Made by a program: the position numbers and the translations under genes. Below are positions 36,733 to 49,707 of a stretch of DNA of 64,000 bases, piece by piece (the first letter of the stretch is position 1; each line of letters begins with the position of its first letter). The DNA comes from Pseudomonas fluorescens (GTDB lineage: Bacteria > Pseudomonadota > Gammaproteobacteria > Pseudomonadales > Pseudomonadaceae). The DNA lies in NCBI RefSeq assembly GCF_001623525.1, contig NZ_CP015225.1, forward strand, positions 3,658,001 through 3,722,000. The letters are read 5' to 3'. The notes beneath the pieces are model-generated. The model was not told where the DNA came from. It worked only from the letters and a program-made list of their open reading frames with translations, and did no database searches.

Positions 36733-39700
36733 ATGATCTCTTCTTATTACCTGCCCCGCAGACTTACGAGTGGCGACAAGATCTTCACTGAAGAAGAGTT
36801 GCTAATCGCTTCAAATTTCGTTGTCGTATTAGCCGAACCGGGTGGCGGCAAAACTGAGCTTCTGAATAGCTTGGCCCGCTATCTAGGCACCTCTGCTATA
36901 ACCGCAAACGTATTCAAACACGTCGGATTCGATGCTGTAAATTGCCCCCTTGTAATCGACGCATTCGATGAGTTGGCTAAGGTTGATAGGACAGGCATCT
37001 ACGGACTTCTTGCCGACGTCAAAAAGGCAACCCCAACCCGCGTCATTCTTTCAAGTCGGTCCAGCGAGTGGGATACATCTACGACAAATGTATTCAAAGA
37101 ATTCCTCGGTCGCCCTCCTCTAGTAGTAAGGCTATGTGAATTTGATGAGACGGAACAGCGTACAATCTTTGACCATCATGTAACAAACGAAAATTTTTCG
37201 ATTTTCCAAGCTGAAGTTTCTCGATTCGATCTAGAAGCGCTACTCCCAAACCCTCAATTTCTAAAACTATTCGCCAATGCATATATCGAGAGCGGAAGGT
37301 GTTTTACCGATAAAAAGTCCATATTCTCTCAAGCTGTCGAACACCTAGCAAAGGAAGCAAACTCCAATATAGCAAGGACTAACCCAACACTCTCGACACC
37401 ACAAAAAATCAATCTATCATCGGAAGTTTTCGCCAAACTCTTATTGTCAGGCGCGGAGGGTATCAGTACCAGCGAAGCTACAGAAGATCGGATGTATCCT
37501 TTGCTTGCATCACTATTTACGATTAATACTGCGGCAGATGGCATCTTAGCTACTCGTCTATTTAAACCTGGTGACCGTGCGGATCAGCACCGCCCAGTCC
37601 ACAAAATTGTTGCTGAGTACTGTGCGGCAGATTATCTTGTCAAACGAATAGTAGACCCAACCGACCCTATAACACTTCCCAAATGTTTAGCTGTTATCGC
37701 TCCGAACTCTACAGTAAGGGATGAACTGCGAGGACTGTTAGGCTGGATGGCATCGCTTGGTAACAAATCCATAGAAGAGTCCGCGATCGAACTTGACGCT
37801 TATGCCGTGCTTGCGAACGGCGACCCTTCTCTGCTTGAACGATCCTCAAAGCGCCTGCTGGTGAGGAAGTTAAAAGAAATTGAATCCAAAGACCCCTATT
37901 TTAGAAAGGGAGATTTTTGGCGCCGATTCAGTGTGGCGGGTTTCTTTACTCAAGAAGTTCTAGACGAAATAAAGCCTCTTCTCACTACCAGTAGTGATGG
38001 GCATCTACGAAACTTGTTACTAGAACTGTTATCAGGATCACCAGCCAATGAATATTTAATAGGTGAACTACGTCAACTCACCTTAGCACCGAACGAAAGT
38101 GAAGCCACACGCTTACTGGCGAGTAGATGCTTGCTAGATACAAGGGGATATGAACATCGAAACGACTTGGATATTCTAATCCGCCAGGCAAATCACACCT
38201 CACTAAATGTTGCAGCCAAAATTATAGAAAGCATTGATCCGGAAAGAATCGACCCCTATTACCTGTCTAACTTTCTACGAACCTGTGCGACACTTTACCC
38301 AGATCATCAAAAGCACCATGAACGAGTGATAGGTGCGCGCTATTTTATAAAACACCTAGTCGAGCGACTAAATCTACGGCTCACAAAATGGCTATTAGAC
38401 AACCTGAGCCAAGGACTAAGCTGTAAATGCCACAAGGAACCTTACGAATGTGACTGTCGAAACGGCATCAGCAAAATCATAGGCTTGATGCTGGATCGCT
38501 ACTTTGAGCTAGCCACTCCTCCTTTTGATTCAGAAAATATTTGGCGATGGGTCGAAAATTTAAATTTTCACGAACAGGAAGTTTCAAGCCAAAGCAAGGC
38601 CGTTCAAATCCTTCAAGAAAATAGCCAGTTACGCCAAGGTATCATTTCGTATGTATTTAAAAATCTAACCGACCGAGATCAAATATGTAACACGAAAATT
38701 CATAAATTTGATTGGCACTCTCACTCCGGCCTTGCTTTTCATACAGCCGATTATAAATTTATAGTTGATTTAGCATTTGAAAACGACAATCCAGATTTGT
38801 GGGCGTGTTTCATTGCCAGACATCAACTTTATAGAAAGGAAGAGGAGCGAGGCCCCGACGACTTTCGTCGGCATATGCGCCTGCAAGCTTCGAAGAAGCC
38901 CCCATTCCTGCGAGAGTGGGTCAAGCTCAACAGAGCCATAGAGCAATCAGAGCGCGAACATCGAATACCAAAATTTAGGCGGACCCGCCGTATGAGGCGT
39001 CTTCGTCAGTACCAAGAAGATGTTCGGGTGAAAAATTTTGACTATTTCAAGAACAACCGAGAGCTCGTAGAAAGTGGCCGTCATTGGGGTTCACTCGTCC
39101 GTTTCGCCGAACTAATGCTTATAGATCCAGAAAAAATTCCTTGTGAGATCGGTGACGACACGCTTGTTCGAAATGCACTCAGAAACTGTCTCGACTTTAT
39201 AAATTGTTACGTCCCCGACTTACCCAAACTTGCTGAACTGCAATGCTCTTCTCAGCATCAACAATCGGAGAGAGTGCTTTATGCGGCCTGCATAGAAATC
39301 CTTCGTGAAAAAGGCAATTTAGAAAGCGTTGACATACGACTTCTGAAAGCACTGAGAACGAACATTTACGTGGCATACAATGCGATATCTAAGGAAGATC
39401 GAGACACGCTAAAAACTGAAGTTGATCGTTTAACTTTCTCTAACATCAAGAGCGCTGAGATTTTCTTACGAGAATATCTCGAGCCACAACTGGCCCACCC
39501 CAACTGCGACAGCACCGAAGTATGGTTATTACGTCGAGATGAAGCCTTTAGTCATTTACGCGCCAAGCTTTCTATCGAATGGCTGGAGAAGTACAACAGG
39601 CTAGAGCTAGGAACACTAGATACACTTTTTGAAATTGCAGCTCAGCACAGTACTCATGAAAATTTGCGACGAGTTATCCTAAAGCAATGCGCCAACTCCA

Positions 39701-40722
39701 GATACGGCGGACCGACTCCAGATGAAAACAAACACATCGAACAACGGCGTCAATTTTGGTTCTTTCGCGCTTGGTATTTTTTAAGTGACCCACCTGAAGA
39801 ATGCTGGGACTTCCTCAAAAAAGATCGAGAAACTGTTTTCCTGTTTTATGAACGGAGCGGGCGAATCAGCCATGGTGCTCATTCTTACTGGCCTAGACTC
39901 ACTCCAAAAAAAGTGGAAGCCATTCTAGAAGCCTTTATCGACGAATGGCCCAAGGTAAATCTACCCAATCATTGGGGCACTGGCAGCCCCAAGGGAGAGA
40001 ACGCGTACCGTTTTTTAACCGAAATAATTTGGTTAATCAACTCAGACGCCGCCAATGATGCAATCCCAGTTCTCGATCGACTTATAGCTAGCCCTCGCTT
40101 CACGGAAATACATAACGACTTGCAAAGCATATACTCCAATCAAGTCAGAAAGTTAGCCCTTAGAGATTTCGAACCTCCTACGCCATTGGAAATTGTAGCT
40201 CGCTTAGACCATGACACAGTGGTAACAGTTGAAGGTCTACGCGAACTATTAATTCAAGAACTACATTTTTTTCAAAAGGCCATCGATGGGGGCGAGTTCA
40301 ATTCCGCAGATCGATTTTATGAAAAATCCGAACGAGTTGACGAGATTACGTCCACTCTAATTATAGCTGAGCGTCTTAGCCTTAGACTCGAACCACAAGC
40401 CATCTCAGTTACACCTGAACACCAACTGAAAGATGCAAATCGAAGTGATTTCACAGCAAGTAAATTTATTAGCGGCAGGAGAAAACTTCTGGTCACCGAG
40501 GTGAAAGGGCAGTGGCATAAAGATCTATACACCGCTGCCTCTGCTCAACTCCATGAACGCTACTCTATCCATCCAGACGCAGAGCAGCAGGGCATTTTCA
40601 TTGTAATTTGGTTTGGCAAACATGAAAAAGTATCAGGACGCAAGAGGCATAGTATAAAAACCGCCCAAGATCTTAAAAAAAGTATCGAAGCCACGCTCCC
40701 CCCCGCAATTACAGGGGGCTAA
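36733..40722 (+). CDS. large P-loop NTPase with C-terminal PD-(D/E)XK nuclease-like domain
   Basis: 1329 residues, A/T-rich compared with the core genes. Walker A is AEPGGGKTELL (about residues 34-44), Walker B is LVIDAFDEL (73-81), and a sensor-like strand RVILSSRSSEW follows (103-113), giving an N-terminal STAND/NACHT-like ATPase of about 350 residues. A long helical region of unknown kind fills the middle; it includes a Cys cluster (CKCHKEPYECDC) near residue 570. The last ~100 residues look like a PD-(D/E)XK nuclease: D1239 in NRSDFT, E1256-V-K1258 in LLVTEVKGQWHK, Q1272 in SAQL, then GIFIVIWFG. This architecture suggests an anti-phage or self-destruct effector, but I cannot name a described system that matches. 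No partner gene in the same direction is adjacent. Confidence 0.8.
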   Translation: MISSYYLPRRLTSGDKIFTEEELLIASNFVVVLAEPGGGKTELLNSLARYLGTSAITANVFKHVGFDAVNCPLVIDAFDELAKVDRTGIYGLLADVKKATPTRVILSSRSSEWDTSTTNVFKEFLGRPPLVVRLCEFDETEQRTIFDHHVTNENFSIFQAEVSRFDLEALLPNPQFLKLFANAYIESGRCFTDKKSIFSQAVEHLAKEANSNIARTNPTLSTPQKINLSSEVFAKLLLSGAEGISTSEATEDRMYPLLASLFTINTAADGILATRLFKPGDRADQHRPVHKIVAEYCAADYLVKRIVDPTDPITLPKCLAVIAPNSTVRDELRGLLGWMASLGNKSIEESAIELDAYAVLANGDPSLLERSSKRLLVRKLKEIESKDPYFRKGDFWRRFSVAGFFTQEVLDEIKPLLTTSSDGHLRNLLLELLSGSPANEYLIGELRQLTLAPNESEATRLLASRCLLDTRGYEHRNDLDILIRQANHTSLNVAAKIIESIDPERIDPYYLSNFLRTCATLYPDHQKHHERVIGARYFIKHLVERLNLRLTKWLLDNLSQGLSCKCHKEPYECDCRNGISKIIGLMLDRYFELATPPFDSENIWRWVENLNFHEQEVSSQSKAVQILQENSQLRQGIISYVFKNLTDRDQICNTKIHKFDWHSHSGLAFHTADYKFIVDLAFENDNPDLWACFIARHQLYRKEEERGPDDFRRHMRLQASKKPPFLREWVKLNRAIEQSEREHRIPKFRRTRRMRRLRQYQEDVRVKNFDYFKNNRELVESGRHWGSLVRFAELMLIDPEKIPCEIGDDTLVRNALRNCLDFINCYVPDLPKLAELQCSSQHQQSERVLYAACIEILREKGNLESVDIRLLKALRTNIYVAYNAISKEDRDTLKTEVDRLTFSNIKSAEIFLREYLEPQLAHPNCDSTEVWLLRRDEAFSHLRAKLSIEWLEKYNRLELGTLDTLFEIAAQHSTHENLRRVILKQCANSRYGGPTPDENKHIEQRRQFWFFRAWYFLSDPPEECWDFLKKDRETVFLFYERSGRISHGAHSYWPRLTPKKVEAILEAFIDEWPKVNLPNHWGTGSPKGENAYRFLTEIIWLINSDAANDAIPVLDRLIASPRFTEIHNDLQSIYSNQVRKLALRDFEPPTPLEIVARLDHDTVVTVEGLRELLIQELHFFQKAIDGGEFNSADRFYEKSERVDEITSTLIIAERLSLRLEPQAISVTPEHQLKDANRSDFTASKFISGRRKLLVTEVKGQWHKDLYTAASAQLHERYSIHPDAEQQGIFIVIWFGKHEKVSGRKRHSIKTAQDLKKSIEATLPPAITGG

Positions 40723-41368: not shown

Positions 41369-42007
41369 ATGGCAAAGTGTATATTTTCGGTTATAGAATC
41401 AAGGTGGTGGAGCGATGGCAATCACAGTGTCAGGCCATTATTCGAAGCTCTAGCTGGTATACATTACGACAATCCATCAGCCTTCTATTATGATATGTTC
41501 AGTGAAAAGCAATCTTTATCATCAGGTCTAAAAATGCGCTGCCGAGATAGTCAAACCCAAGTGGTATATCTCGCCACTCATGGAAGCGACAGTTCTATTG
41601 GCGGAGCAAGCGGTCACATGATCACGCGTACTGAACTGAGAAATATGCTCACAACTCACAACAATACAAAACAAGTAAAGGGACTTTATCTAGGAACATG
41701 CCTGATGGGAAATCAGTCTTTAGCAAAATTCCTTCTTGAAGATGCTGGCACTAATTTAGATTGGGTTGCTGGCTACAAGGAGGAAGTAGACTGGATCGAC
41801 GGGAGTGCCATTGATATGATCTTCTTCTCTAAGCTTGCAGAGGAGTATCGAAAAAATAATAGCCGCCGCAAAGGAAAAAAATCCTCAAGGCAGATGGCTC
41901 ATACTGCCGGATCGGAACTGCTTCACCTTGTACCTGGCGCACATTCGAAATATGGATTTAATATATTCATGCATGAAAGCCGAAAACTGACTAGCATGTT
42001 TAGCTAG
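41369..42007 (+). CDS. caspase-like (clan CD) cysteine protease, putative
   Basis: 212 residues. VVYLATHGSDSS carries the catalytic-type His71-Gly72 and GLYLGTCLMGN carries Cys111, a 40-residue spacing typical of caspase/CHAT-like peptidases. Strand patterns before each motif are hydrophobic as in that fold. After the Cys, DWVAGYKEEVDWIDGSAID resembles the substrate-pocket segment of bacterial caspase-like proteins. The start has a good AGGAG at -6. It is A/T-rich, stands alone, and is bounded by inverted repeats at 40801 and 42101. Its substrate is unknown; a defence or toxin role is an inference from the family. Confidence 0.7.
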   Translation: MAKCIFSVIESRWWSDGNHSVRPLFEALAGIHYDNPSAFYYDMFSEKQSLSSGLKMRCRDSQTQVVYLATHGSDSSIGGASGHMITRTELRNMLTTHNNTKQVKGLYLGTCLMGNQSLAKFLLEDAGTNLDWVAGYKEEVDWIDGSAIDMIFFSKLAEEYRKNNSRRKGKKSSRQMAHTAGSELLHLVPGAHSKYGFNIFMHESRKLTSMFS

Positions 42008-42997: not shown

Positions 42998-43357
42998 TTA
43001 CCGCGTTTCAACAATATCCAACGCCCGATTCGCCAACAGCTCACTCACCTCAATCACCTGCAAAATCCCCAACGCAACCCGCCGTCGCGAACCATCCAAA
43101 TCAAACGCCAAATCACTGATCATGGCATTCGCCGAAGCCAGATTCTCACTCAGATTCGCAAGCAAACACTCAGAATCTACACTCGGATCAATCCGTAAAA
43201 TGGAGTCGGTCTTGTCAGACGTTTCGCTCTTAGGCTTGGGTTTCAGATAAAAATCCAACGCTCGCGTGGCAGCGTCGTCGATTTTCTTGTTGCGGGCAGA
43301 CTGAGCACGGGAGACGTGTTCGTTCGCATCGGGAGGGTTCGGAGTATCTTTTGCCAT
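42998..43357 (-). CDS. DUF6124-type small protein (copy 1)
   Basis: 119 residues starting MAKDTPNPPDANEHVSRAQS, with ARNKKIDDAATRALDFYLKP and SECLLANLSENLASANAMIS, the pattern of a family common in pseudomonads (DUF6124, related to DUF3077). Mostly helical, soluble. A paralogue with ~80% identical residues by eye is at 49028, and both have the same upstream region. Function unknown. Confidence 0.75.
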   Translation of the reverse strand: MAKDTPNPPDANEHVSRAQSARNKKIDDAATRALDFYLKPKPKSETSDKTDSILRIDPSVDSECLLANLSENLASANAMISDLAFDLDGSRRRVALGILQVIEVSELLANRALDIVETR

Positions 43358-43671
43358 CGTCTTGCTTCCTGTAGTAGGAGCCATCACCCGCTCGCTGCTA
43401 AACGATGGGAGGCAGCTGTACGCAGGTTAGCAGACCGGGGAAACAAGAAACCGGCGCGTCCGGGGACGCCCTGCGCACAGCCACCATCAAGTGCAGGATG
43501 AGGAATCCTGACTGGATGACGCCTTGCACAACCTGTTTCACCACGAGCTGCTAAACCCGATCACTGACCATCAGTGACAGGTCCAAAACTACCGACGCAA
43601 CCCCAGGCGCACAAGCCGGCGGATTCTGGCGTAGTTGTAGGCAAAGGCGCAAGGCGCTGTGGCTTGGCGGG
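43358..43671 (-). promoter_or_regulatory. candidate structured leader RNA of the DUF6124 gene (copy 1)
   Basis: This 314-bp stretch is repeated at 49394-49707. Stems (plus-strand positions): TCACTGA/TCAGTGA (43561-43577), GCGTCC/GGACGC (43456-43469), CCGG/CCGG (43435-43454). Three heptamers CTGCTAA (43395), TTAGCAG (43427) and CTGCTAA (43548) allow the middle one to pair with either outer one. All change in a compensating way in copy 2. The distal ~70 bp could encode APCAFAYNYARIRRLVRLGL, but in this copy it lacks a start codon. Nothing else explains the conservation. Confidence 0.6.
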
Positions 43672-47535: not shown

Positions 47536-48729
47536 GTGGCGACACGCAAAAAAGACATCCCCCAGGTCCGAAACCCGCCCGGTGGTGATGGGCATTACGT
47601 CACCTATCGGGACATGACCGCCAGCGAACTGGCCGAGCGCGAAGCCCGGCAGTTGGCTTACGAAGCCATGCTTGCCCGGCAGGCAGCCTATGAACGAGAG
47701 CGCTGGGCCACGGCGGCTAACAAGCCGCTACCCACCGTAACCGGAAGCGTGTTTGCCAAGAGCTGCAAGCTCCCCGACGGCATCATCGATTACAGCAACC
47801 CCAACGGCTACGTCCCTGCCGATCTGGTCAAGCAGTACGGCGATCTCATGTGGCTCGGCGGCAGGAGCGCCGACCCATCCGGCACGATCCCCCTCAAGCA
47901 GATCGGCGCTGGCACGGTACCCGTTACTCTGGGCAGGCTCGCGCTGGGCGGGTCGGCAACTTCTACGGCAGCCGCTGCCGGCGGCACCGTTGGCGCGGCC
48001 CTGCTGACAGGCATCGTCGCCTTGCTCTGGCCGTCCAGCCTCGGCGACAGCGCGCTTTACAGCGAAGACCAGCTACGTCACCTCAAGCAGGCCCGCAGCC
48101 GCATGCGCCTGAGCATCGAGCAGCAGGCCGATGGCAGCCTCAAGGGCTACGGCTTCTACACCGGCCAGAACCGCGACTGGGAAATGGTCGACGTCGTCCA
48201 GTTCACCCCTCGCGCCGATCAATTCATCGCCGACCTGGGTGATGGCATCGAACTGATCTGGACCCCGGCCACCGACCCGTCCGACGTCCTCGGCATCCCC
48301 GCCCTGGAAGCGGCGCCACAGGCGCCTCATATCTGGATCTATCCGCCGACGCCAGTAGCCGACAGCATTATCGTCGATCCGATCTATCCGCCGGAGTACA
48401 AGGATTTCATTCTGGTGTTTCCGGCGGATTCGGGGGTTCGGCCGGTTTATGTGGTTTTGAGTGTTCCGGGGGATCATAAGTACTACAAGCCCCCCTCGCT
48501 GCTTCCAGCGTTTCCAGACGCTACGATTGCTCCTTCCAAAACCTTTGTACGTGGTGGTGGCGTTAAACGTCGAAGATGGAAGGATCGTAAAGGCAAAATT
48601 TATGAATGGGACTCACAGCGCGGCGCCGTAGAGCTGTACACAAAACAGGGTCAACACCTTGGCGAGTTCGATCCGATAACTGGCGAACAAACCAAACCCG
48701 CCGATCCGACAAGGAAAGTAGAAAAATGA
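47536..48729 (+). CDS. S-type pyocin-like bacteriocin with colicin-E3-type RNase domain
   Basis: 397 residues. The N-terminal part has a short charged helix, then FAKSCKLPDGIIDYSNPNGY and an S-type pyocin domain (about 95-310). There is a Gly/Ala-rich hydrophobic segment near residues 140-170. The C-terminal ~60 residues are the colicin E3-type rRNase: KGKIYEWDSQRGAVELY and EFDPITGEQTKPADPTRK. Of the ColE3 catalytic residues, Asp (D359), Glu (E366) and Arg (R393) are present but the His is replaced by Arg (R362, codon CGC). It lacks a clear receptor-binding domain and is short for a pyocin; it may be released in another way. The stop overlaps the immunity ATG by 4 bp. Confidence 0.82.
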   Translation: MATRKKDIPQVRNPPGGDGHYVTYRDMTASELAEREARQLAYEAMLARQAAYERERWATAANKPLPTVTGSVFAKSCKLPDGIIDYSNPNGYVPADLVKQYGDLMWLGGRSADPSGTIPLKQIGAGTVPVTLGRLALGGSATSTAAAAGGTVGAALLTGIVALLWPSSLGDSALYSEDQLRHLKQARSRMRLSIEQQADGSLKGYGFYTGQNRDWEMVDVVQFTPRADQFIADLGDGIELIWTPATDPSDVLGIPALEAAPQAPHIWIYPPTPVADSIIVDPIYPPEYKDFILVFPADSGVRPVYVVLSVPGDHKYYKPPSLLPAFPDATIAPSKTFVRGGGVKRRRWKDRKGKIYEWDSQRGAVELYTKQGQHLGEFDPITGEQTKPADPTRKVEK

Positions 48730-48956
48730 AGCCCGTCGTTGAAATTTTTGACCAGACTACCGAAGAGCTAATACAGACCGTGGAAGTCCCAAGCGTATAC
48801 ATGGACCCGTTGGCCGCACTTATGGGCTGGACAAAGCCTGAAGATTTTTGCTTTGTCTACGACCTGTCACCACAGCAGATAACGACCATAGAAGAGTGGA
48901 CTCACACAACCATTCATGGTGATAACCGCATCGTTCAAATCGTCTGCCTTGAATGA
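48726..48956 (+). CDS. immunity protein for the adjacent bacteriocin (DUF7683-like)
   Basis: 76 acidic residues (MKPVVEIFDQTTEELIQTVE), ATGA overlap with the toxin gene. The location and size are those of a colicin immunity gene, but the sequence is not like Im3. Assignment as immunity rests on position; DUF7683 membership is recalled and should be checked. A terminator hairpin follows at 48976. Confidence 0.72.
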   Translation: MKPVVEIFDQTTEELIQTVEVPSVYMDPLAALMGWTKPEDFCFVYDLSPQQITTIEEWTHTTIHGDNRIVQIVCLE

Positions 48957-49027: not shown

Positions 49028-49393
49028 CTACCTCACCTCAACAATATCCAACGCCCGATTCGCCAACAGCTCACTCACCTCGATCACCTGCAAAATCCCC
49101 AACGCCACATGCCGCCGAGCCCCGTCCAGATCAAACGCCAAATCGTTGATCATGGCATTCGCCGACGCCAGGTTCTCACTGAGGTTCGCAAGCAAACATT
49201 CAGAATCAGCCCCAGGGTCGATCCGTAAAATGGAGTCCGACTTATCAGACGTTTCGCCCTTAGGCTTGGGCTTCAGGTAGTAATCCAGGGCACGAGTGGC
49301 CGCTTCGTCGAGCTTTTTGTTGCGAGCCGATTGGGCACGTGATGTGGGTTCATCTGTATCTGTAACTGGAGGATTCGGTGTAATTTTGACCAT
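49028..49393 (-). CDS. DUF6124-type small protein (copy 2)
   Basis: 121 residues starting MVKITPNPPVTDTDEPTSRA, with ARNKKLDEAATRALDYYLKP and SECLLANLSENLASANAMIN. Paralogue of the gene at 42998; the two and their upstream regions make a duplicated module in direct orientation. Function unknown. Confidence 0.75.
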   Translation of the reverse strand: MVKITPNPPVTDTDEPTSRAQSARNKKLDEAATRALDYYLKPKPKGETSDKSDSILRIDPGADSECLLANLSENLASANAMINDLAFDLDGARRHVALGILQVIEVSELLANRALDIVEVR

Positions 49394-49707
49394 AGCCTTA
49401 GCTCTCTTTGGGTTGGGCTACGTCCCGCTCGCGACTAAACGATTGGGAGGTAGCTGTACGCAGGTTAGTCGACCGACGAGCTAAGAAATCGGCGCGCCCG
49501 AGGGCGCCCTGCGCACAGCCACCATCGAGTGCAGGGATGGGGATACCTGACTGATGAACGCTTGAGCGACTTAGCAACGACGGGCGACTAAACCCGATCA
49601 CTGATGTGCAGTGACAGGTCCCAAACTACCGACGCCACCCAAGGCGCACAAGCCGGCGGATTCTGGCGTAGTTGTAGGCAAAGGCGCAAGGCGCTGTGGC
49701 CTGGCGA
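49394..49707 (-). promoter_or_regulatory. candidate structured leader RNA of the DUF6124 gene (copy 2)
   Basis: Same length as copy 1 (314 bp). Heptamers are CGACTAA (49432), TTAGTCG (49465) and CGACTAA (49586), each with the same three-base change as copy 1, so pairing is kept. Stems TCACTG/CAGTGA (49598-49614), GCGCCC/GGGCGC (49494-49507) and CCGA/TCGG (49473-49492) are also kept by compensating changes. Distance from the middle to the far heptamer is 121 nt in both copies. The rest is described under copy 1. Confidence 0.6.

Follow-up and report, generated by a model that had tools for sequence, protein, structure and literature searches.

Multicopy C4 antisense RNA units located upstream of DUF6124 genes in Pseudomonas

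The window, a stretch of 64,000 nucleotides of the Pseudomonas fluorescens genome (NZ_CP015225.1, positions 3,658,001 to 3,722,000), contains two similarly organized units, both on the minus strand along with their DUF6124 genes. Each consists, in this order, of a putative promoter, a 5' hairpin, an a1 site, a C4 RNA, an a2 site, a b2 site at the ribosome-binding site and a DUF6124 gene (Table 1). Between the two C4 units (47536-48956) are located an S-type pyocin gene, with Pyocin_S and Cytotoxic domains, and then a DUF7683 gene. Two further proteins encoded in the window have no Pfam or PADLOC match: a 1329-aa protein (36733-40722), encoded just after a tRNA-Leu gene and bearing a P-loop-like GGGKTE motif by eye, and a 212-aa protein (41369-42007), in which His and Cys motifs seen by eye might suggest a caspase-like protease.

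Table 1. Features of the two C4 units in the window (window coordinates)
Feature	Position	Strand	Basis or remark
C4 antisense RNA, copy 1	43405..43491	-	Rfam RF01695, 78.1 bits
a' heptamer CTGCTAA inside C4, copy 1 (middle heptamer of the initial annotation)	43427..43433	-	complement search
b' TCTTGTTTCC, loop of second C4 hairpin, copy 1	43439..43448	-	pairs with b2
a2 target TTAGCAG directly 3' of C4, copy 1	43395..43401	-	complement search
b2 target GGAAGCAAGA at ribosome-binding site, copy 1	43360..43369	-	2 nt short of ATG
a1 target TTAGCAG upstream of C4, copy 1	43548..43554	-	complement search
b1 candidate GAAACAG, copy 1	43533..43539	-	7 loop pairs, one G-U, by eye; weaker than b2
5' hairpin TCACTGA-TGG-TCAGTGA, copy 1	43561..43577	-	
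Putative promoter TTGTGC-17-TAGTTT, copy 1	43586..43614	-	consensus only
Conserved upstream box GCCAGAATCCGCCGGCTTGT, copy 1	43611..43630	-	overlaps putative -35
DUF6124 gene, copy 1	42998..43357	-	PF19619, 93.1 bits; start picked by position after b2
C4 antisense RNA, copy 2	49443..49529	-	RF01695, 75.5 bits
a' heptamer CGACTAA, copy 2	49465..49471	-	complement search
b' CTTAGCTC, copy 2	49478..49485	-	matches b2
a2 TTAGTCG, copy 2	49432..49438	-	complement search
b2 GAGCTAAG at ribosome-binding site, copy 2	49397..49404	-	matches b'
a1 TTAGTCG, copy 2	49585..49591	-	complement search
b1 candidate GCTAAG, copy 2	49570..49575	-	
5' hairpin, copy 2	49598..49614	-	
Putative promoter TTGTGC-17-TAGTTT, copy 2	49623..49651	-	consensus only
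Upstream box, copy 2	49648..49667	-	
DUF6124 gene, copy 2	49028..49393	-	PF19619, 92.3 bits

The RNA element is a C4 antisense RNA and not a new switch. In an Rfam scan of the window, the two C4s and one tRNA were the sole matches reaching the cut-offs, and no described riboswitch class was matched at these cut-offs. The copy 1 match to RF01695 (gathering score 45) spans model positions 1-87, the full length, and that of copy 2 is likewise full length. These matches refute the statement of the initial annotation that no named RNA fits. The four pairings with compensating changes between the copies that it described are all present in the sequence and take on a definite meaning: the heptamers CTGCTAA/TTAGCAG/CTGCTAA, which become CGACTAA/TTAGTCG/CGACTAA, are a1, a' and a2 of the P1 c4 circuit; GCGTCC/GGACGC (GCGCCC/GGGCGC in copy 2) and CCGG/CCGG (CCGA/TCGG) are the two inner C4 hairpins; and TCACTG/CAGTGA, found in both copies, is the separate 5' hairpin. 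By eye, the far heptamer also shows the GG/CC extension with its single bulged base. A further pairing, absent from that annotation and outside its two-state model, links b', in the loop of the C4 hairpin, to b2 at the DUF6124 ribosome-binding site; in copy 1 it comprises 10 consecutive pairs including one G-U.

C4 antisense RNA is known from phages P1 and P7, and P1 silences its antirepressor with it. In the P1 record (AF234172), a1 (48255-48261), b1 (48269-48276), the c4 RNA (48343-48419), a2 (48423-48429) and b2 (48452-48459) are followed by icd, which begins at 48470, and the P1 C4 scores 68.8 bits with RF01695. According to this record and the available parts of two papers (PMC12197685; PMC5320573), the prototype in P1 is an antisense RNA processed into a separate molecule. 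The window units share with P1 c4 the covariance model, the order a1-b1-c4-a2-b2 and the position of b2 just before the first gene. The RF01695 features that were tested were all found: a score over the gathering cut-off, the covarying closing stem and two inner hairpins, and complementarity of a' and b' to a1 and b1 upstream and to a2 and b2 at the ribosome-binding site, for b1 weakly. Whereas in P1 one C1-controlled operon, containing icd and the antirepressor gene, is under c4, in Pseudomonas many apparently individually keyed chromosomal copies precede DUF6124 or other small proteins. A P1-type immI operon (c4-icd-ant) was considered as a class, and icd and the antirepressor gene are absent downstream in both window copies; the units were not assigned to this class because DUF6124 lies downstream in both.

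The C4 fold is strongly conserved. For stem analysis, 84 loci, hand-picked so as to thin near-identical ones, gave 85 C4 sequences, which were aligned on a model derived from P1 and the 25 host copies. In the internal C4 stems, 98.5% of cells are paired, compared with 32-40% for slid partners, and each of the three helices, the closing stem and the two inner hairpins, is paired in 98.2-99.3% of cells. Both sides have changed in 21 of the 26 pairs, and none of 500 shuffles was as good, in an alignment that is fitted to the structure and so favours the fold. All 26 sequences (host copies and P1) have TGG at the P1 cleavage position. In the minimum-energy folds of the two leaders, C4 retains its fold and the middle heptamer is unpaired. 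Because this heptamer is located inside the C4 closing stem, pairing of a' with either outer copy in one molecule would form a pseudoknot.

Complementarity between the C4s and their own flanking sites exceeds chance. The test set of the host genome comprised its 25 C4 matches over the cut-off. In a second genome of the genus (G049), 52 of 55 matches are over the cut-off and 51 of the 55 were tested, the set leaving out the weakest over-cut-off C4 (L153, 45.6 bits) and the three below-cut-off matches. C4s were shuffled among targets in 10000 permutations, and exact 7-base complements were counted. For a'-a2, such complements occur in 19/25 host copies (permuted mean 1.9, maximum 8) and 47/51 in G049 (mean 3.0); for a'-a1, in 23/25 (mean 3.3, maximum 10) and 48/51 (mean 4.3); for b'-b2, in 18/25 (mean 1.3) and 37/51 (mean 2.5); and for b'-b1, in 10/25 (mean 1.9) and 25/51 (mean 3.6). 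For all four pairings in both genomes, the observed count was reached in 0/10000 permutations, with the same outcome for duplex energies, and first versions of the test based on scores gave 0/20000 throughout. Control stretches +200 to +255 downstream in G049 have no excess pairing (2106 and 16592 of 20000 permutations). Twenty host copies have an exact b2 match of at least 6 bases, and in 18 of these b2 ends 1-11 nt before the first ATG. The upstream b1 site is weak: against the upstream 150 nt, b' finds its best or tied-best partner in its own copy in only 2/25 host and 8/51 G049 cases. Sixteen a2-supported a' strings were counted in the host, besides one copy with none, and some of these strings are trimmed versions of others. 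In the copy at 3517334, exact matches of at least 6 bases were sought at a2, a1 and b2 and none was found. The 5' hairpin followed by CGG or CCG was detected by a simple scan in 20/25 host and 40/51 G049 copies; at least one of the 20 (4160875) has a hairpin at a different place, which is probably not the same one.

The results leave intact one part of the initial reading, that of a structured, covarying RNA pairing with two flanking copies of one sequence before a start codon. A purely cis-acting two-state switch, in which pairing of the middle heptamer with one or the other flanking copy of its transcript opens or closes the start site, is the weaker part and is improbable. Such a switch would be in keeping with the co-change of both outer copies with the middle heptamer (a 6-mer complement to a' is present on both sides in 24/25 host and 50/51 G049 copies), but both pairings are pseudoknotted with the covarying closing stem, the heptamer stays unpaired in the minimum-energy leader folds, and the loop pairing at the ribosome-binding site together with the P1 precedent favours a released antisense RNA. 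Before processing, the transcript may still pair alternatively, but this would be a detail and not the main mechanism.

Each element is thus very probably a self-silencing C4 antisense unit, acting through translational silencing by a processed antisense RNA. One transcript from one promoter would contain the 5' hairpin, a1/b1, C4, a2/b2 and the DUF6124 start codon. By analogy with P1 and with published Acinetobacter RNA-seq, RNase P would cleave ahead of the GG at the start of the C4 fold, releasing C4. The free C4 would then pair with its own message through a' at a2 and through loop b' at b2, the latter at the ribosome-binding site, thereby blocking translation. The upstream a1/b1 would provide a second C4 site, which probably titrates or competes for C4 and sets a threshold; a condition inducing the unit is likewise presumed.

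The key differs from copy to copy, and therefore each unit would mainly silence itself and its own kind. At a threshold of at least 7 exact bases at both a and b, cognate pairs number 14/25 in the host and 35/51 in G049, and non-cognate pairs 0/600 and 0/2550. The copies thus appear individually keyed and their mutual exclusivity is likely; it is not established, because crude summed duplex energies favour the own target over all others for only 12/25 host and 22/51 G049 C4s and b' is seldom best matched by its own upstream region. Strict orthogonality by summed duplex energy is unsupported and holds only under the two-site exact-match rule; by these crude energies, cross-talk between units is possible. 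Such cross-talk bears on the idea that chromosomal C4s mainly act elsewhere, on C4-type antirepressor operons of incoming phages or on paralogous units, in a network or in superinfection immunity. Some non-cognate pairs pass a rule of at least 6 exact bases at both sites (12/600 host, 27/2550 G049), and one unit found in IMG/VR contigs lies among Mu-type head and virion genes and another beside an S24-type repressor. Yet cognate pairs dominate under the same rule (20/25, 42/51), and non-cognate pairs disappear at 7 bases. Action mainly on other transcripts is therefore unlikely.

The promoter of C4 units is predicted from consensus only. TTGTNN-17-TANNNT is kept in all 15 box-bearing host copies; when spacings from 12 to 23 were tried, none of the 15 showed that -10 string at any but 17. 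The upstream box occurs at 19 sites in the host genome with at most 2 mismatches (reversed control, 0): 15 at the 25 C4 matches, one (L302) at a truncated C4 and three without C4. As the box is absent from 10/25 host C4s at this threshold and three of its sites have no C4, it was rejected as a marker of C4 units. At L302 (host 4128848), box, hairpin and a1 are present, and the 3' end of C4 is cut by a repeat-like stretch (38.7 bits with our own model). At L303 (host 4796140), a box with 2 mismatches precedes a different gene, with no C4.

In the host genome (one contig, 6.92 Mb), C4 has 25 matches over the cut-off and DUF6124 has 24, and 21 of the 25 C4s are located 170-221 nt before a DUF6124 match on the same strand. 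Three of the 24 DUF6124 matches have no upstream C4, and a search for C4 remnants near them with filters off gave none at E <0.1. Two of these C4-less genes (L154, L155; host 4238173, 3316310) retain, by eye, a 5' hairpin like that of C4 units followed by CCGGG. At two other loci (L023, L031; host 49545, 5077571), the conserved N-terminal start of DUF6124 is, by eye, out of frame with the domain. Of 59 sampled genus genomes, 54 have C4 matches (53 over the cut-off) and 47 have DUF6124; in the sampled phylum, C4 matches occur in 62/398 genomes under stricter filters with 10 candidates scored per genome. Among fetched loci, which are the best-scoring and not a random sample, C4 lies directly before DUF6124 in 72 of the 80 best-matching named loci (the remainder being L192, L193, L195, L200, L201, L224, L226 and L233). 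A search with DUF6124 copy 2 found 1/50,697 phage records and 0/72,556 plasmid records. An alignment search with DUF6124 found 47 IMG/VR contigs, and C4 adjoins the gene in 45; in the other two, the gene begins 13 and 22 nt into the available DNA.

Other genes are also found under C4. For DUF3077, 28 of the 30 fetched best-scoring loci have a C4, 26 at 45-184 nt and two at about 500 nt before the domain. The QslA family has C4 in 8/13 loci of the genus sample and in 19 of the 21 loci retrieved as most similar to the QslA sequence in the PDB, those without it being L283 and L284 (55-56% identity). QslA is an anti-activator of LasR (PDB 4ng2; available part of PMC13043044). In relatives sharing 56-61% identity with the PDB sequence, C4-a2-b2 immediately precedes the gene, and in L280-L282 (61, 58 and 56% identical), an ATG in frame with the QslA match lies 51-53 nt after C4. 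In L237, the C4 unit and the QslA frame are separated by an 89-aa frame. All 21 QslA-locus C4s examined (8 of the genus sample and 13 of the loci most similar to QslA) have, by direct count, an a2 complement of at least 7 bases and a b2 complement of 6-11 bases. Among 198 family and 25 genus genomes searched for a P. aeruginosa-like qslA, the best match is 61% identical. BLAST clusters of the frames downstream of G049 C4s comprise 34 DUF6124-like (one member scanned), 3 DUF3077-like (one scanned), 8 of an unnamed family, 2 Bro-N and 5 single frames, two of which have DUF3077 matches following. The two Bro-N genes (44.4 and 43.2 bits) each follow a C4, and one of them starts with MIKVTPNPP, which is DUF6124-like. 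The unnamed family (86-111 aa, often with 'IDTQAPL' or similar; L111, L114, L115, L118, L143, L150, L151, L152 and host C4s at 1710248 and 5467499) gave no Pfam match for the three members scanned.

The DUF6124 proteins of the window have 119 and 121 aa, GRAVY values of -0.41 and -0.34 and a best 19-residue hydropathy mean of 1.18. In the predicted structure, a variable N-terminal part precedes a helical hairpin at the C-terminus (helices 58-82 and 85-111), with pLDDT 88-96 for residues 61-110 and a whole-model pTM of 0.48. Foldseek against PDB folds gave no match at E 0.001 or better, an alignment search of PDB sequences gave one match at E 0.4, and Pfam, NCBIfam, PHROGs and PADLOC gave nothing past the DUF name. 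The dN/dS of copy 1 against seven relatives is 0.07-0.22, indicating purifying selection, and therefore the protein is kept. This selection, the co-changing target sites and the absence from plasmid records make a mobile repeat without function highly improbable, despite up to 52 copies per genome and the truncated relic L302. A type I toxin-antitoxin system, with C4 as the antitoxin RNA and the small protein as the toxin, would account for small proteins tied to an antisense RNA in many copies per genome; it is nevertheless improbable, as DUF6124, by its length, hydropathy and predicted helical hairpin, is not a short membrane peptide, PADLOC gave no match, and the cargo relatives with a described role, QslA and Bro-N, are regulators. 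Because of this other cargo and the P1 antirepressor, DUF6124 is most likely a small helical anti-regulator, which is the weakest step of the interpretation and is drawn by analogy.

The RNA kind is known; its setting, number, individual keying and cargo are new. In the literature searched, outside which subscription papers mostly lay, no link of C4 to DUF6124, DUF3077 or QslA was found, as far as the available parts of PMC2864571, PMC12197685, PMC5320573, PMC8546580, PMC5767178 and PMC13043044 extend, and neither the 25-copy host set (21 before DUF6124) nor the 52-copy G049 set was found. A c4-a1b1 motif appears as a table entry beside c4, with no Rfam accession shown, in the available part of Weinberg et al. 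2010 (PMC2864571); judged from its name, it is presumably the upstream a1/b1 part of C4 units. There is also a likeness to the Group 1 C4-like sRNAs of Acinetobacter baumannii, for which the available part of PMC5320573 describes high expression, RNase P-like processing, many chromosomal C4 copies in one genome and variable specificity loops. Whereas that part leaves their targets open, in Pseudomonas most copies have their own target immediately downstream.

It is conceivable, if somewhat short of probable, that Pseudomonas has made a phage immunity RNA into a general, expandable silencing platform, with up to dozens of mutually exclusive two-key units per chromosome, each of which keeps one small anti-regulator of DUF6124, DUF3077, Bro-N or QslA type silent as long as its own C4 is neither lost nor titrated. 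In that case, QslA relatives would be set by a phage-type antisense RNA, and DUF6124 and DUF3077 would be anti-activators or antirepressors of regulators. These two families, so far without a described function, gain a regulatory context, and the gene next door is suggested as a place to seek targets of chromosomal C4s. The units also constitute a natural collection in which tens of antisense pairs, apparently with separate keys, reside together, and they predict antisense control for relatives of a known quorum-sensing anti-activator.
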